A stretch of DNA of 37,232 nt. Source: Acetobacterium sp. (GTDB taxonomy: Bacteria > Bacillota > Clostridia > Eubacteriales > Eubacteriaceae). Made by a program: the position numbers and the translations under genes. The notes beneath the pieces are model-generated. The model was not told the DNA's origin. It saw only the letters and a program-made list of their open reading frames with translations, and made no database searches. This document shows, one piece after another, positions 30,380-37,232 of this stretch; within the stretch, counting starts at the first letter, position 1; every line of letters begins with the position of its first letter. The DNA lies in the NCBI GenBank assembly GCA_028692885.1, contig JAQUWM010000020.1, positions 1 to 37,232 on the forward strand, in the 5' to 3' direction.

Positions 30380-31552
30380 TTAAAGGCATTCTGAGAAAAT
30401 CTGCACCGCCTGATCAATTTCTTCGTTGGTAACGACTAAAGGTGGGACAAAACGGATGGCATTGCTGCCGGCAGTGATTAGGAGCAAGCCTTTTTCCATC
30501 GCTTTGGCGACGATGGCACCCAGATCGGCATCAACCTGAACGCCGACAATCAGCCCCATTCCGCGAACCTCTTTAATGGTTGGATGGTCTTTTTTCAAGG
30601 CTTCCAGTTTGGTTTTCAGATAGTCCCCTTTTTCAACCACCGCTTCAAAAAATCCCGGTGCCGTCAAGGTTTCAATGACATATTTGGCCGTGGCAGTCAC
30701 AAATGGATTGCCCCCAAAGGTGGAAGCATGGGTACCTGGGGTAAAGACTTCGGCCACATGATCTTTGGCAATAATGCCGCCGATGGGGACCCCGCCCCCT
30801 AAGCCTTTAGCCATGGTCACCACATCCGGCACGACACCGTATTGCTGATAGGCAAAGAGTTTTCCCGAACGGCCAATCCCCGTTTGAACCTCGTCAAAAA
30901 TCAGCACGATGTTTTGTTCATCACAGATTTTGCGGACTTCTTTTAAATAGTCCGGATCAGCGGGATATATTCCCCCTTCACCCTGAATCGGTTCTAAAAT
31001 AATCCCACAGGTTTTAGGGCTGATCTGAGCTTTCAGCGCATCGATATCATTGTAGGGCACATGATAAATTTCCGGCATCAGGGGTTCCAGGTTTTCCTGA
31101 TATTTGGGCTGACCGGTAGCGGTAATCGCGGCATAGGTTCGGCCATGGAAAGACTGATTCATGGCAATGATTTCCACCGCTTCCTTATTTTTCTTGAGCT
31201 TGCCGTAAACCCGGCACAGTTTCAAGGCCGCTTCACAGGCTTCTGCCCCGCTGTTGCAAAAGAAAACCTTGTCCAGTCCGCTGGCTTTGGTCAGCATCTC
31301 GGCCAGTTCAATTCCCGGTTCAGACCAGTAAAGATTGGAAATATGCACCAGTTTTTCCATTTGCGCCTGCATCGCCGCCAACACCCCCGGATGGGAATGA
31401 CCGAGCGCATCAACAGCGATTCCAGCGACAAAATCCAGATATTCTTTGCCCTCATGATCAGTCAGGACACAGCCCTGACCCTTATCAAATACCAATGGAA
31501 AACGTTTATAGGTTTCCATGATCACATTGTTTCCTCGTGTTATTAAATCCAT
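30380..31552 (-). CDS. argD: Acetylornithine aminotransferase
   Basis: A 390-residue class III PLP aminotransferase of arginine synthesis: N-acetylglutamate semialdehyde + glutamate to N-acetylornithine + 2-oxoglutarate. FVAGIAVDALGHSHPGV is the N-terminal signature, FFCNSGAEACEAALKL binds the PLP phosphate, SFHGRTYAA stacks on the ring, LIFDEVQTGIGRSG holds the ring Asp, and the Schiff-base Lys lies in VTMAKGLGGGVPIGG. The ending TAGSNAIRFVPPLVV is typical of ArgD. RBS AGGAGG precedes the ATG. It lies 9 bases after argB as the last gene of argC-argJ-argB-argD. Confidence 0.96.
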   Translation of the reverse strand: MDLITRGNNVIMETYKRFPLVFDKGQGCVLTDHEGKEYLDFVAGIAVDALGHSHPGVLAAMQAQMEKLVHISNLYWSEPGIELAEMLTKASGLDKVFFCNSGAEACEAALKLCRVYGKLKKNKEAVEIIAMNQSFHGRTYAAITATGQPKYQENLEPLMPEIYHVPYNDIDALKAQISPKTCGIILEPIQGEGGIYPADPDYLKEVRKICDEQNIVLIFDEVQTGIGRSGKLFAYQQYGVVPDVVTMAKGLGGGVPIGGIIAKDHVAEVFTPGTHASTFGGNPFVTATAKYVIETLTAPGFFEAVVEKGDYLKTKLEALKKDHPTIKEVRGMGLIVGVQVDADLGAIVAKAMEKGLLLITAGSNAIRFVPPLVVTNEEIDQAVQIFSECL

Positions 31553-31561
31553 TTTGTCCTC

Positions 31562-32431
31562 CTAAATAATGGAACGACGAATCATCGTTCCCACCCCGGC
31601 GGCAGTGAACAGTTCCAGTAACATGGAGTGCTCCACCTTGCCATCTAAAATATGTACTGAATTGACCCCCTGGTTCAGAGCGTCGACGCTGTTTTCCACC
31701 TTGGGAATCATCCCGCCGGAGATAATTCCTTCTTCAATCAGCTTGGGCACATTTTCAGCAAAGAGCCGCCGAATAATCGAATCCGGATTGTCTGGGTCCA
31801 TATAGACTCCATCGGTATCGGTCAGATAGATCAATTTTTCAGCCTTCATTGCTTTAGCAATGGCATAGGCTACATGGTCCGCATTAATGTTATAGCTCTG
31901 ACCGGTTTTATCGGTGCCTATTGGGGCAATTACCGGCAGGTAGTCGTCTTTTAACAAGGTGTTTAAAAGACGGTTATCAACATGGATAATATCTCCGACA
32001 AAACCGATGTCCAGATTATTGACAAATTTCTTTTTAACCTTGATCATCCCCCCGTCCTTGCCGGAAAGCCCGACGGCGTTCATTTCACGGTTCTGGAGCA
32101 GCTGCACAATTTCTTTATTGATTTTTCCGGATAAGACCATTTCGGCAACTTCGACTACCTTCTCGTTGGTGATTCGCAGACCCTCGACAAATTCAGTGTG
32201 AATCTCCAGATCACTCAGCATCCCAGATATATCTTTACCACCGCCATGAACAATAATCAGACGGATGCCAACCAGCCGCATCAGCGAAATATCATCCATC
32301 ACCGATTGCTTTCTGGCCTCATCATACATAAAGCTGCCGCCATATTTAATGACCATGGTTTTCTTTTTAAACTGTTGGATATAGGGCAAGGCTTCAATTA
32401 GAATCTTGGCCTTTTCAATATATTTTTCCAT
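31562..32431 (-). CDS. argB: Acetylglutamate kinase, arginine-sensitive type
   Basis: A 289-residue amino-acid kinase phosphorylating N-acetylglutamate. VIKYGGSFM binds the phosphates, LIIVHGGGKDIS and GLRITNEKVVEVAEMVLSG form the substrate site, and GGMIPKVENSVDAL is the nucleotide-site motif. About 25 residues precede the first strand (KAKILIEALPYIQQF), corresponding to the N-terminal helix that interlinks dimers into the hexameric, arginine-inhibited form of the enzyme. That predicts end-product inhibition at this step, although the ArgJ gene indicates acetyl recycling. It is third in the arg operon, 19 bases after argJ. Confidence 0.96.
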   Translation of the reverse strand: MEKYIEKAKILIEALPYIQQFKKKTMVIKYGGSFMYDEARKQSVMDDISLMRLVGIRLIIVHGGGKDISGMLSDLEIHTEFVEGLRITNEKVVEVAEMVLSGKINKEIVQLLQNREMNAVGLSGKDGGMIKVKKKFVNNLDIGFVGDIIHVDNRLLNTLLKDDYLPVIAPIGTDKTGQSYNINADHVAYAIAKAMKAEKLIYLTDTDGVYMDPDNPDSIIRRLFAENVPKLIEEGIISGGMIPKVENSVDALNQGVNSVHILDGKVEHSMLLELFTAAGVGTMIRRSII

Positions 32432-32450
32432 TTATTACTCTTTTCTTTTT

Positions 32451-33674
32451 TTAACTTCGATAATCGCCATTGATCTTAACATAGTCATAGGACAGATCAC
32501 AACCCCAGGCTACTGCTTTTTCGTCGCCTTCTTCCATTTCAACCGAAATATAAATATCCGTTTCGGATAAAACTTTTTTCGCTTCATCTTCATCAAAAGC
32601 GATCGGGGCACCGTCATTTAGAAGAGTGATCATCCCAGCCTGACTGGAAAAAACCAGCGAAACCTTTAATGGATCAAAGTCGGCCCCGGAATAACCCAGG
32701 GCACAGAGCACTCGTCCCCAGTTGGCATCTTCGCCAAACAGCGCTGTTTTGACCAGACTGGAGGTGATCACCGATTTAGCCAGTTTGCGGGCATCATCCT
32801 TTGTTTTGGTGCCATGGACTTCCACTTCGACAAACTTGGAAGCACCTTCGCCGTCGCGAATGATTTTTTTAGCCAGAGTTTTATGAACATAGATAAAGGC
32901 TTCTTTAAAGATCTCATAATCCGGGGTGTTTTCCTGCAAGAGTTGATTGCCGGCCAACCCATTGGCAATCACCGTGACCATATCATTGGTGCTGGTATCG
33001 CCATCGACAGAGATCATGTTATAGGTATCCACCGTCGTTTCTTTCAGGAGTTTATCCAGCAGAGCCGGTTCAATCTTCACATCGGTGGTCACAAAGGATA
33101 ACATCGTGGCCATATTGGGATGAATCATCCCAGAGCCTTTGGCCATCCCTCCAATCTTCACCGACTTCCCAGAAATTTCCACTTCGATGGCGATGGTTTT
33201 TTGAATTGTATCGGTGGTCAGAATGGCATTGGCGGCAGTATCACCGTCTTTCTCAGTATTTCCCAGTTTTTCTCCCAGACTCTCAATACCAGACAAAATT
33301 TTCTCCACTGGCAAGATCACCCCGATAACCCCAGTTGAGGCAATCAGTATATCCTCGGGCTGTAAACCCAAAACCGCTGCTGCCTTAGTAGCTGTAGCTA
33401 CCACTGCTTCTTCCCCTTTTTGTCCGGTGCAGGCATTGGCGTTGCCGCTGTTGACCACTACCGCCTGCTTATAGGGATTATTCATAACTTTATTACACCA
33501 GAGAATCGGTGCCGCCTTGACAACGTTCGTTGTTGTCATAATGCTCGTTGCGCCTGGCACTTCCGATAAAATCATCGCCAGATCATTTTTTTCATTTTTT
33601 TTGAGGCCGCAATTGATCCCACCGGTTTTAAAACCTGTGGGTGTTGTTACTCCGCCGGTCTTTATTACTTTCAT
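32451..33674 (-). CDS. argJ: Bifunctional glutamate N-acetyltransferase / ornithine acetyltransferase
   Basis: A 407-residue Ntn-type enzyme that moves the acetyl group from acetylornithine to glutamate; many homologues also use acetyl-CoA. The self-cleavage site is the Ala-Thr bond in HPNMATMLSFVTTD, which yields two chains with Thr as nucleophile. VVNSGNANACTG, ASTGVIGVILP and SVDGDTSTNDM are family motifs, and the C-terminus WGCDLSYDYVKINGDYRS is standard. An ATG 15 bases upstream is in frame, but GAGGAG stands 7 bases before the ATG at 33674. It makes arginine synthesis here the cyclic type, so ArgE is not needed. Confidence 0.95.
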   Translation of the reverse strand: MKVIKTGGVTTPTGFKTGGINCGLKKNEKNDLAMILSEVPGATSIMTTTNVVKAAPILWCNKVMNNPYKQAVVVNSGNANACTGQKGEEAVVATATKAAAVLGLQPEDILIASTGVIGVILPVEKILSGIESLGEKLGNTEKDGDTAANAILTTDTIQKTIAIEVEISGKSVKIGGMAKGSGMIHPNMATMLSFVTTDVKIEPALLDKLLKETTVDTYNMISVDGDTSTNDMVTVIANGLAGNQLLQENTPDYEIFKEAFIYVHKTLAKKIIRDGEGASKFVEVEVHGTKTKDDARKLAKSVITSSLVKTALFGEDANWGRVLCALGYSGADFDPLKVSLVFSSQAGMITLLNDGAPIAFDEDEAKKVLSETDIYISVEMEEGDEKAVAWGCDLSYDYVKINGDYRS

Positions 33675-33716
33675 GTCTTTACTCCTCATATTATAATAAC
33701 TTATCCGAATTTTTGT

Positions 33717-34757
33717 TTAGATTGGGAAATCGGCAATAAAGTCGATGCCGATTTTTTCGGCCAGACCAAAACAGATATTCATATTTTGAACGGCCTGCCC
33801 GGCGGCACCTTTAATCAGGTTGTCAATAGCACCGACCACAATGACGTGGTTAGTGCGGGGATCAATAGTCAGCCCAATGTCGCAATAATTGGTTCCTTTC
33901 ACCCAGCGGGTTTCCGGCATCCGGTTTTCCAGGATTCTGACAAAATATTCATCGTGATAAAAGTCTCTGTAAATCGCCTTTACCTCTTCCAGGCTCAGGT
34001 CTACCGTTAACTTGGCATAGGATAAGGCCAGAATTCCGCGGTTCATCGGAACCAGATGGGGGGTGAACAGAATATTAAAGTTCTGCCCATTTAACAGCCG
34101 CAATTCCTGCTCAATTTCCGGAGTATGCCGATGGGACCCAATTTTGTAGGCCTTGATGGTTTCATTACATTCCGAGTACATCAGCTCGGTGATCGTTCCC
34201 CGACCAGCTCCAGTTACCCCCGATTTAGCATCGACGATAATACTGCCAGTATCAATGAGATTGTTTTTTATAAGCGGTGCCAGGCTTAAAATACTACAGG
34301 TTGTATAGCAGCCAGGATTCGAAATAAGCTGGGCTTTTTTTATCTCCTCCCGATGCAATTCGCATAATCCGTATACCGCTTCATTAAGTAATGGATGATT
34401 AAAATGTTCGGTTTTGTACCAGTCTTCATAGATCTCAATATCTTTAAGCCGAAAATCGGCACCCAGATCAATGACCTTTGTTTTCTTTAGCACATCGGCT
34501 GTAACCGTTTTGGATGCAATGCCATGAGGCAAAGCCAGAAATACTACATCCGACTTTTCTGCTAGCGCCTTGATGTCCGTTGCTTCGCAAACCAGATCGG
34601 TAATGCTTTCAAAATTTCCGTAAACATCACTGAATTTTTGTCCAGAAAAGCTTCTGGTTCCGATTGTCACCACTTCTACTTCCGGATGCCGCATTAAAAT
34701 TCGGATCAGTTCCTGTCCGGCATAACCAGTTCCTCCGATAACAGATGCTTTAATCAT
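33717..34757 (-). CDS. argC: N-acetyl-gamma-glutamyl-phosphate reductase
   Basis: A 346-residue NADPH-dependent reductase, first gene of argCJBD. The nucleotide-binding motif is GGTGYAGQELIRIL at about 9-22, the catalytic Cys lies in SNPGCYTT (about 147), and the catalytic His in GSHRHTPEI. VTGAGRG and the C-terminal GAIDNLIKGAAGQAVQNMN are diagnostic. The RBS is AAAGGAAAGGAAA. The leader of about 227 bases contains two modest hairpins, but I found no T-box. Confidence 0.96.
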   Translation of the reverse strand: MIKASVIGGTGYAGQELIRILMRHPEVEVVTIGTRSFSGQKFSDVYGNFESITDLVCEATDIKALAEKSDVVFLALPHGIASKTVTADVLKKTKVIDLGADFRLKDIEIYEDWYKTEHFNHPLLNEAVYGLCELHREEIKKAQLISNPGCYTTCSILSLAPLIKNNLIDTGSIIVDAKSGVTGAGRGTITELMYSECNETIKAYKIGSHRHTPEIEQELRLLNGQNFNILFTPHLVPMNRGILALSYAKLTVDLSLEEVKAIYRDFYHDEYFVRILENRMPETRWVKGTNYCDIGLTIDPRTNHVIVVGAIDNLIKGAAGQAVQNMNICFGLAEKIGIDFIADFPI

Positions 34758-34990
34758 TTTATTTTCCTTTCCTTTCTTAATGCCTTTATTTTAAGAATAG
34801 TAAGAGTTTAGGCAAACCGGATCGCACCATCGATTCCCACAAGAATCAGTTCGAAGTTTATCTACAATCTTAATATTCTATTTTTCTTCCCCTTAATAAT
34901 CCACCATCACAAGTTCTTTAAATATTTATTTTACCAAAATAAATGATGTCTGTCTGTTAGTTTATGAAATTTATTAATTCTTATTTCTAT

Positions 34991-35019
34991 ATTATACTCG
35001 ACTCACAATGTATAATCAA
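34991..35019 (-). promoter_or_regulatory. Sigma-A-type promoter of argCJBD
   Basis: On the minus strand TTGATT (35014-35019), 17 bases, TATAAT (34991-34996). Transcription would start near 34984, about 227 bases before argC. Hexamers and spacing fit well. Confidence 0.65.
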
Positions 35020-35070
35020 GCGTTTTTTATGCATAAATATGAATTAATTATAAAATTTTTCTTTTTATAC

Positions 35071-35099
35071 TTGCATTCCACATAAAATAATTGTATAAT
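35071..35099 (+). promoter_or_regulatory. Sigma-A-type promoter of argGH
   Basis: TTGCAT (35071-35076), 17 bases, TATAAT (35094-35099), about 57 bases before the TTG start of argG. The -10 is covered by an ArgR-type box. Confidence 0.7.
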
Positions 35100-35105
35100 A
35101 ATTCA
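35092..35105. promoter_or_regulatory. ArgR/AhrC operator (ARG box) over the argG -10
   Basis: TGTATAATAATTCA matches 13 of 14 positions of the ARG-box half-palindrome TGAATWWWWATTCA. It covers the -10 of argGH, so arginine-loaded ArgR bound here would block transcription. The argR gene itself is not in the window. Confidence 0.65.
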
Positions 35106-35155
35106 TATCATTAAGTTGATTATACAAACGAGATTATTATCAGGAGGATATAAAA

Positions 35156-36373
35156 TTGAAGAAAAAAGTAATTCTTGCCTATTCCGGTGGATTGGATACG
35201 ACCACCATTATACCATGGCTTAAAAATACCTACGACTACGATGTTATTGCTGTCTGTGTGGATGTGGGACAGGGCACCGAACTGGAAGGCCTTGAAGAAC
35301 GAGCCCTTGCTTCTGGAGCCAGCAAGTTATATATCGAAGACGTTACCGATGAGTTTGTCGAAGACTTTGTCTGGCCAGCCCTTAAAGCTGACGCTATTTA
35401 TGAAAAAAAATATTTGTTGGGTACTTCTCTGGCTCGTCCCTTAATTGCCAAGGTTTTGGTAAAATATGCAGAATTGGAAGGCGCCGAAGCCATCTGTCAC
35501 GGCGCTACTGGTAAAGGCAACGACCAGGTCCGTTTTGAGCTGACCATTGGCGCTTTAGCACCGCAATTGAAAATCATTGCCCCCTGGCGAATTTGGGATA
35601 TTAAATCCCGTGAAGATGCCATGGACTATTGTGTCATGCATGATATCAAGGTGCCGATGTCGATCAGCAACAGCTACAGCCGCGATAAAAACATCTTACA
35701 TATGAGCCATGAAGGTCTGGAGTTGGAAGATCCTTCTTTAGAACCACAATATAAAAAATTACTGCAAATGACAACACCATTGGAAGAAGCGCCTGATGAA
35801 GCAGAAATTGTCAGTCTTGACTTTGAAGAAGGTATTCCGGTCCGATTAAACGGTGTTGCAATGACTGGCCGCGAACTGCTTGAAAAACTCAATATTATTG
35901 GCGGACGTCACAGCATTGGCGTCGTGGATCTCATTGAAAACCGGGTGGTCGGGATGAAATCCCGCGGGATTTATGAAACCCCCGGCGGTTCAATCCTTTA
36001 TAATGCCCACGAAGAATTGGAACACATGTGTCTCGATCGTCAAACCTTTGGCTTTAAACAACAGGCTGCCGTTAAGTTTGCTGAACTAGCCTATAATGGC
36101 GAATGGTACACCCCCCTTCGTGAAGCGCTGACTGCTTTTGTGGATGAAACCCAAAAAACGGTTACCGGAAATGTTCGTATAAAACTTTATAAAGGCAATA
36201 TTATCCTGATTGGTGTAACCTCACCTTACTCACTTTACAATGCTGAAATTGCCAGCTTTACCACCGGCGATCTCTATGATCATAAAGACGCTGAAGGGTT
36301 TATCCATTTATTTGGCTTACCGCTTAAGGTTCGTGCTTTAATGCGACTCAGCCGAGAAGAAAAAGGGGAATAA
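35156..36373 (+). CDS. argG: Argininosuccinate synthase
   Basis: A 405-residue enzyme joining citrulline and aspartate with ATP. The N-terminal ATP pyrophosphatase loop is [10 protein letters not shown] at about 7-16, followed by [17 protein letters not shown] and [28 protein letters not shown] binds citrulline/aspartate, and the C-terminal part carries [15 protein letters not shown]. It starts with TTG: AGGAGG (35142-35147) stands 8 bases upstream and the protein begins [11 protein letters not shown] as expected. argH follows 6 bases later. Confidence 0.97.
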
Positions 36374-36379
36374 AATAAC

Positions 36380-37232
36380 ATGAAAAAAATGTGGGGAGGT
36401 CGGTTTTCTAAAAAAACCGACCTTTTAACTGATGATTTTAACTCGTCCATATCCTTTGATCAACGCCTGTATAAACAGGACATCACTGGAAGTATTGCCC
36501 ATGCTCGAATGCTTGGGAAACAGAATATTATTGATCCCCAAGAATCTGAACAGATTATCGAAGCTCTGGAAGCGATTCTTGTCGACATCGAAGCCGGAAA
36601 GATCGAATTTTCGGTGTCGATGGAAGATATTCATATGAATGTCGAAGCCATTTTGACCGAACGGATTGGTGATGTCGGCAAAAAACTGCACACCGGCCGC
36701 AGCCGCAACGATCAGGTTGCCACCGACATGCGACTCTATGTTAAAGAGATTGCCGATGACAGCAAATCACTGATCCAGAACCTGATCCTGACCCTGCTGT
36801 ACCTGGCCGAAGATCATACAAATACCATCATGCCTGGCTATACCCACCTGCAGCGAGCCCAACCGATCACCTTTAGTCATCACCTGATGGCTTATGTCGA
36901 AATGTTTAAGCGGGACATGATCAGAATGACTCAAGTCAAATCCATGGCCGATACCTTACCACTGGGTTCAGGCGCCTTAGCGACCACCACCTATCCACTC
37001 GATCGGGAAGCGGTTGCTCTTGAGCTGAATTTTTCGGCGGTATCGCTAAACAGTCTGGATGGGGTTTCCTACCGAGATTTCTGTCTTGATTTCCTCGAAG
37101 CTGCATCTGTCTTAATGATGCACCTCAGCCGCTTTTCTGAAGAGATTATCCTCTAGTGCAGCAGCGAGTTTAATTTTATCACCTTAGATGATGCCTTTAG
37201 CACTGGAAGCAGCATTATGCCCCAGAAAAAAA
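36380..37232 (+). CDS. argH: Argininosuccinate lyase, interrupted by an in-frame TAG and cut by the window end
   Basis: Splits argininosuccinate into arginine and fumarate. The start KKMWGGRFSKKTD, HMNVEAILTERIG, LHTGRSRNDQVATDMRLY and MPGYTHLQRAQP are all textbook ArgH. At codon 259 (37154-37156) there is a TAG where relatives, from memory, have a Trp in EEIILW. The frame then continues without shift through SSEFNFITLDDAF and the signature loop GSSIMPQKK to the window edge. The catalytic Ser of that loop (about 277-278) lies after the stop, so a 258-residue product would be inactive. Either the gene is freshly inactivated, the TAG is read through, or the base is an error. It is 6 bases after argG. 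The family call is certain; functional state is open. Confidence 0.88.
36397..36423 (+). promoter_or_regulatory. Terminator-like hairpin inside the 5' end of argH
   Basis: AGGTCGGTTTT (36397-36407), a 5-base loop, AAAACCGACCT (36413-36423), then TTT: an 11-bp perfect stem with a short U-run within codons 6-15. It resembles an intrinsic terminator or attenuator placed just after translation begins, where active ribosomes would disrupt it. Confidence 0.5.
37154..37156 (+). other. In-frame amber codon in argH
   Basis: TAG at codon 259. The 25 codons that follow to the window edge spell conserved ArgH sequence in the same frame. A single G-to-A change from TGG (Trp) would create it. Confidence 0.9.

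Follow-up and report, generated by a model that had tools for sequence, protein, structure and literature searches.

An in-frame TAG codon is read as pyrrolysine in MtmB, MtbB, and MttB. Organisms that decode pyrrolysine tend to avoid TAG as a terminal codon, which in bacteria is a trend and not an absolute rule. The window analyzed here (37,232 bases) is contig C122 of a draft Acetobacterium genome (assembly of 3.03 Mb in 202 contigs; completeness 87.24%, contamination 4.65%), and it carries an in-frame TAG in argH, the gene encoding argininosuccinate lyase. Three readings of this codon were weighed: an artefact of sequence or assembly, a real nonsense allele, and amber readthrough. Of these, only amber decoding would amount to something new in kind; if true, it would place pyrrolysine inside a core biosynthetic enzyme.

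The argH piece occupies 36380-37232 on the plus strand, comprises about the first 60% of the gene, and runs off the contig end. It matches TIGR00838 and PF00206, and its identity to 18 congeners is 80-96%. As described in the initial annotation, the frame is open from 36380 for 258 sense codons, meets TAG at codon 259 (37154-37156, plus strand), and continues without a shift for 25 matching codons through the GSSIMPQKK loop to the contig end. The 258-aa part scores above the NCBIfam TIGR00838 cut-off (337.6 bits vs. 279.5), and the last base of the TAG codon is 76 bases short of the contig end.

The initial annotation gave Trp as the residue at this site in relatives, and this was right. Codon 259 is TGG in all 29 relatives read, 18 of which are congeners. 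Matches to argH were present in 56 of the 61 genomes searched (own genome included), and among the argH matches listed, only that of the window has an internal stop. The 29 relatives read are those with loci, out of 55 other genomes with an argH match; the other 26 were outside this reading. A wider scan, in which residue 259 was located by gap-free counting from the GSSIMPQKK loop, gave W in 78, Y in one, and F in one of the best 80 of at least 591 confirmed stretches. With a near-invariant Trp at this site, the stop is no chance ORF boundary.

A second contig of the same assembly crosses the same codon. Searching the genome with the argH piece matched positions 11309-11515 of contig C90, which are 94% identical and free of stops; the other matches were the window itself and one distant homologue (25% identity). 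Conversely, the C90 tip matched only C90 itself and the window. This tip (L007/L058) overlaps the window at 37024-37232 (plus strand) with 197 of 209 bases identical. Eleven of the 12 differences are located in 37028-37084, and the one difference in the 148 bases of 37085-37232 is at 37155, where the window has A and C90 has G; codon 259 of C90 is TGG (Trp). The 3' half of argH on C90 is intact, with 244 open residues that pass the argH cut-off alone. The ArgH frame, which in full length would include the GSSIMPQKK loop, is broken in the window contig and open in the 244-aa C90 piece. The terminal codon of the C90 gene is TAG, in the same alignment column as the ends of 24 of the 29 relatives; five relatives end no more than three columns away, and the stop codons used by the relatives are TAA (22), TGA (4), and TAG (3). 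Downstream of argH, C90 aligns with several congeners.

The overlap between the two contigs has a sharp mosaic boundary, with 11 differences in 61 bases (37024-37084 compared to the L058 tip) beside 148 nearly identical bases. Recombination between strains or a chimeric tip would account for this boundary. The 11 upstream differences resemble real strain variation and not random error, and a second real haplotype is probably present here.

Apart from the start, four positions in the window argH differ from all 29 relatives: Y141, S188 (a position that varies), Y231, and the stop at codon 259. Tyr231 is encoded by TAC at 37070-37072 (plus strand), some 160 bases short of the contig end; Asp is found at this position in C90, in 29 of 29 relatives, and in all 80 of the best wider loci of at least 591. 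Tyr141 is also encoded by TAC (36800-36802, plus strand), and the relatives have Asp in 26 cases and Asn in three. Because Tyr141 lies outside the C90 overlap, with some 430 bases between it and the contig end, odd changes also occur away from the tip. Among the invariant first and second positions of codons, 1.05% in argH carry window-unique changes, and the other window genes range from 0 to 2.6%; the rate is therefore no proof of decay. Only the kind of change in argH is unusual (D to Y, W to stop). Relative to 10 relatives, argH has five changes at first and second positions: G to T in three cases, C to A in one, and G to A in one. This spectrum hints at oxidative-damage error, but five changes are too few to build on, and three of them (codons 182, 231, and 259) are still unique when the 18 congeners are compared.

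Contig tips of the assembly were compared in a sample comprising the window, C90, and 60 other contigs, each represented by its two terminal 250-base segments (124 tips, of which 16 were N-masked and 108 usable). Exact overlaps of 127 bases were found in eight pairs and of 126 bases in one pair, and from these the assembler's final word length was probably 127. Inexact tip overlaps also occur elsewhere in the sample (for example, 99.2% identity over 126 bases between C119 and C123 at their starts), and the window is not alone in having such an end. The segment 37156-37232 is 77 bases long, which had fitted the idea of a 77-base word, common to both alleles, as the contig's end point; the sampled tips did not bear this out, their exact overlaps being 127 or 126 bases and none 77. 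The first 200 bases of the window have no match in any other contig of the assembly. In congener G002, a contig break is also located near the argH start, and the pieces overlap (L016 and G002:C2:1-99).

We assign a probability of roughly 0.65 to the reading that the TAG comes from a sequence error, a chimera, or a low-coverage contig tip in the draft assembly. By this reading, argH would be split where two nearly identical sequences meet; the window contig would end as a short dead end carrying A at 37155, and C90, which holds the rest of argH, would supply the TGG. The window path would stop 77 bases past the A, before sharing a full 127-base word without it, which would give it the look of a dead-end branch. 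The A at 37155 would then be a sequence error or part of a chimeric or low-coverage tip, and not a real allele. A dead-end tip is suggested because the overlap between the window and C90 is inexact, unlike the exact joins of 127 and 126 bases. An artefact is further suggested because fewer than 80 bases separate the stop from the contig end and C90 reads TGG with an open 3' half, and because C90 also lacks D231Y, which is close to the same end. The searches for TAG-decoding machinery described below, which found none, and the TAG that ends the C90 argH point the same way. Most probably the organism has an intact argH, the window's end being an unreliable tip or one from a minority strain, and the TAG is not supported as a biological feature. 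The initial annotation had listed a one-base sequence or assembly difference as the plain alternative, and C90 supports it. On the other side, the cluster of 11 upstream differences looks like true strain variation, and Y141 is beyond the C90 overlap, both of which argue against a tip artefact.

Possible, at clearly lower odds, is a true nonsense allele. Two Acetobacterium strains would then co-occur, one with an inactivated argH (stop at 259, D231Y, and D141Y) and the other, represented by C90, with an intact gene. Two haplotypes are visible in the overlap of the window and C90, and the radical changes at 141, 231, and 259 fit early decay next to an argG gene with no changes in 361 invariant sites. 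However, two of these three changes are at the contig tip, identity to C90 is 147/148 over 37085-37232, a read error would also yield a single G-to-A change, and the other window genes span a range of change rates that includes the rate of argH. The two radical changes near the contig end fit a poor tip and also early decay of argH in one strain; we lean to the tip. Fresh inactivation with arginine auxotrophy had been one option in the initial annotation. A nonsense mutation in one co-occurring strain is the part that stands as possible, but auxotrophy of the organism cannot be inferred because the 3' half of argH is intact on C90.

The arginine genes beside argH also bear on inactivation. Argininosuccinate synthase (argG; 35156-36373, plus strand) is open and directly upstream of argH, and none of its 361 residues that are invariant among 10 relatives is changed. 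Each of argG, argB, argC, argJ, and argD passes a family cut-off. Within 30380-36373 of the window, the minus strand carries argD, argB, argJ, and argC and the plus strand carries argG, forming a largely complete-looking arginine cluster. These five genes give no sign of pathway loss, which argues against a strain in which argH is decaying.

Use of TAG as a terminal codon was evaluated in 31 ORFs that we chose from the 61 listed in the window. TAG ends nine of the 31, and in 75 of 81 comparisons of the TAG-ended ORFs, relatives stop no more than three codons from the same place. TAG works as a stop in this genome. The avoidance of terminal TAG toward which pyrrolysine decoders tend is not seen in these ORFs or in the C90 argH, which also ends in TAG.

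The search for amber-decoding machinery covered PylS, PylB, PylD, tRNA-Pyl, tRNA anticodons, and, of the methylamine methyltransferases, MtbB. The best PylS match (C-terminal, TIGR02367) in the window's own assembly was 25.5 bits against a cut-off of 178.15. Some PylS match was present in 51 of 61 genomes, and matches above the cut-off were limited to G016, G022, and G025. PylB, searched in the own genome only, reached 184.4 bits against a cut-off of 348.2. No PylD match was above the cut-off in 21 genomes, a set that did not include G016; 10 of 14 controls for this search matched, one of them above the cut-off. A tRNA-Pyl query from G016 matched G016 alone and none of the other 18 of the 19 genus genomes, including the window's own. 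MtbB (PF09505) was found in none of the 19 genus genomes; because this set includes G016, MtbB absence says little alone. Twenty-eight tRNAs in the own assembly matched RF00005 (150 of 172 first-look candidates were scored), and no CTA anticodon was present in the 27 read by ARAGORN; the 28th, cut by a contig end, had no call. With 87% of the genome present, absence of pyl genes from the assembly would not be proof of their absence from the organism.

Pyrrolysine genes do occur in the genus. G016 is the only one of 19 genus genomes with PylS above the cut-off and tRNA-Pyl; in locus L038, from its contig C74, PylS is located at 1501-2226 of the locus and tRNA-Pyl (CTA) is close by at 2452-2523. 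This congener has no MtbB match. G022 and G025, which belong to the same family (L039 and L040), have PylS above the cut-off and no tRNA-Pyl called within about 1.5 kb.

Production of full-length ArgH from the TAG codon by pyrrolysine insertion or other amber readthrough is very improbable: the trait exists in a congener and a pyl cluster could be missing from an incomplete genome, but the searches for pyl genes, tRNA-Pyl, MtbB, and a CTA anticodon gave nothing above threshold, TAG is an ordinary stop, and the near-invariant Trp is encoded by TGG in the sister contig. The initial annotation had put pyrrolysine recoding forward and named pylT, pylS, and pylBCD as genes to look for; with these results, the proposal finds no support. 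The specific version in which a minority Acetobacterium strain has a pyl cluster like that of one congener, missing from the assembly, and makes ArgH with pyrrolysine replacing this Trp is likewise very improbable.

The case also carries a caution for annotation. When an in-frame stop is found near a contig end, other contigs of the same assembly should be compared before recoding is claimed; here that comparison alone answers most of the question raised by the argH TAG.

Compared with known systems, the argH TAG resembles the pyrrolysine codons of MtmB, MtbB, and MttB in being in frame with conserved sequence on both sides. It differs in that no pyl genes or tRNA were found by the searches above, relatives have Trp at the site, and TAG otherwise serves as a stop. 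Compared with known ArgH proteins (TIGR00838, PF00206/PF14698), both pieces score above the argH cut-off, that of the window over profile positions 1-256 and that of C90 over 214-450 of 455, whereas in the window copy codon 259 is TAG and Tyr replaces the otherwise invariant Asp231. A further likeness is to strain variation or error at the ends of draft contigs, where two tips of the same assembly overlap inexactly with a single-base difference; nothing essential sets the window apart from such cases, and the difference here happens to create a stop codon.
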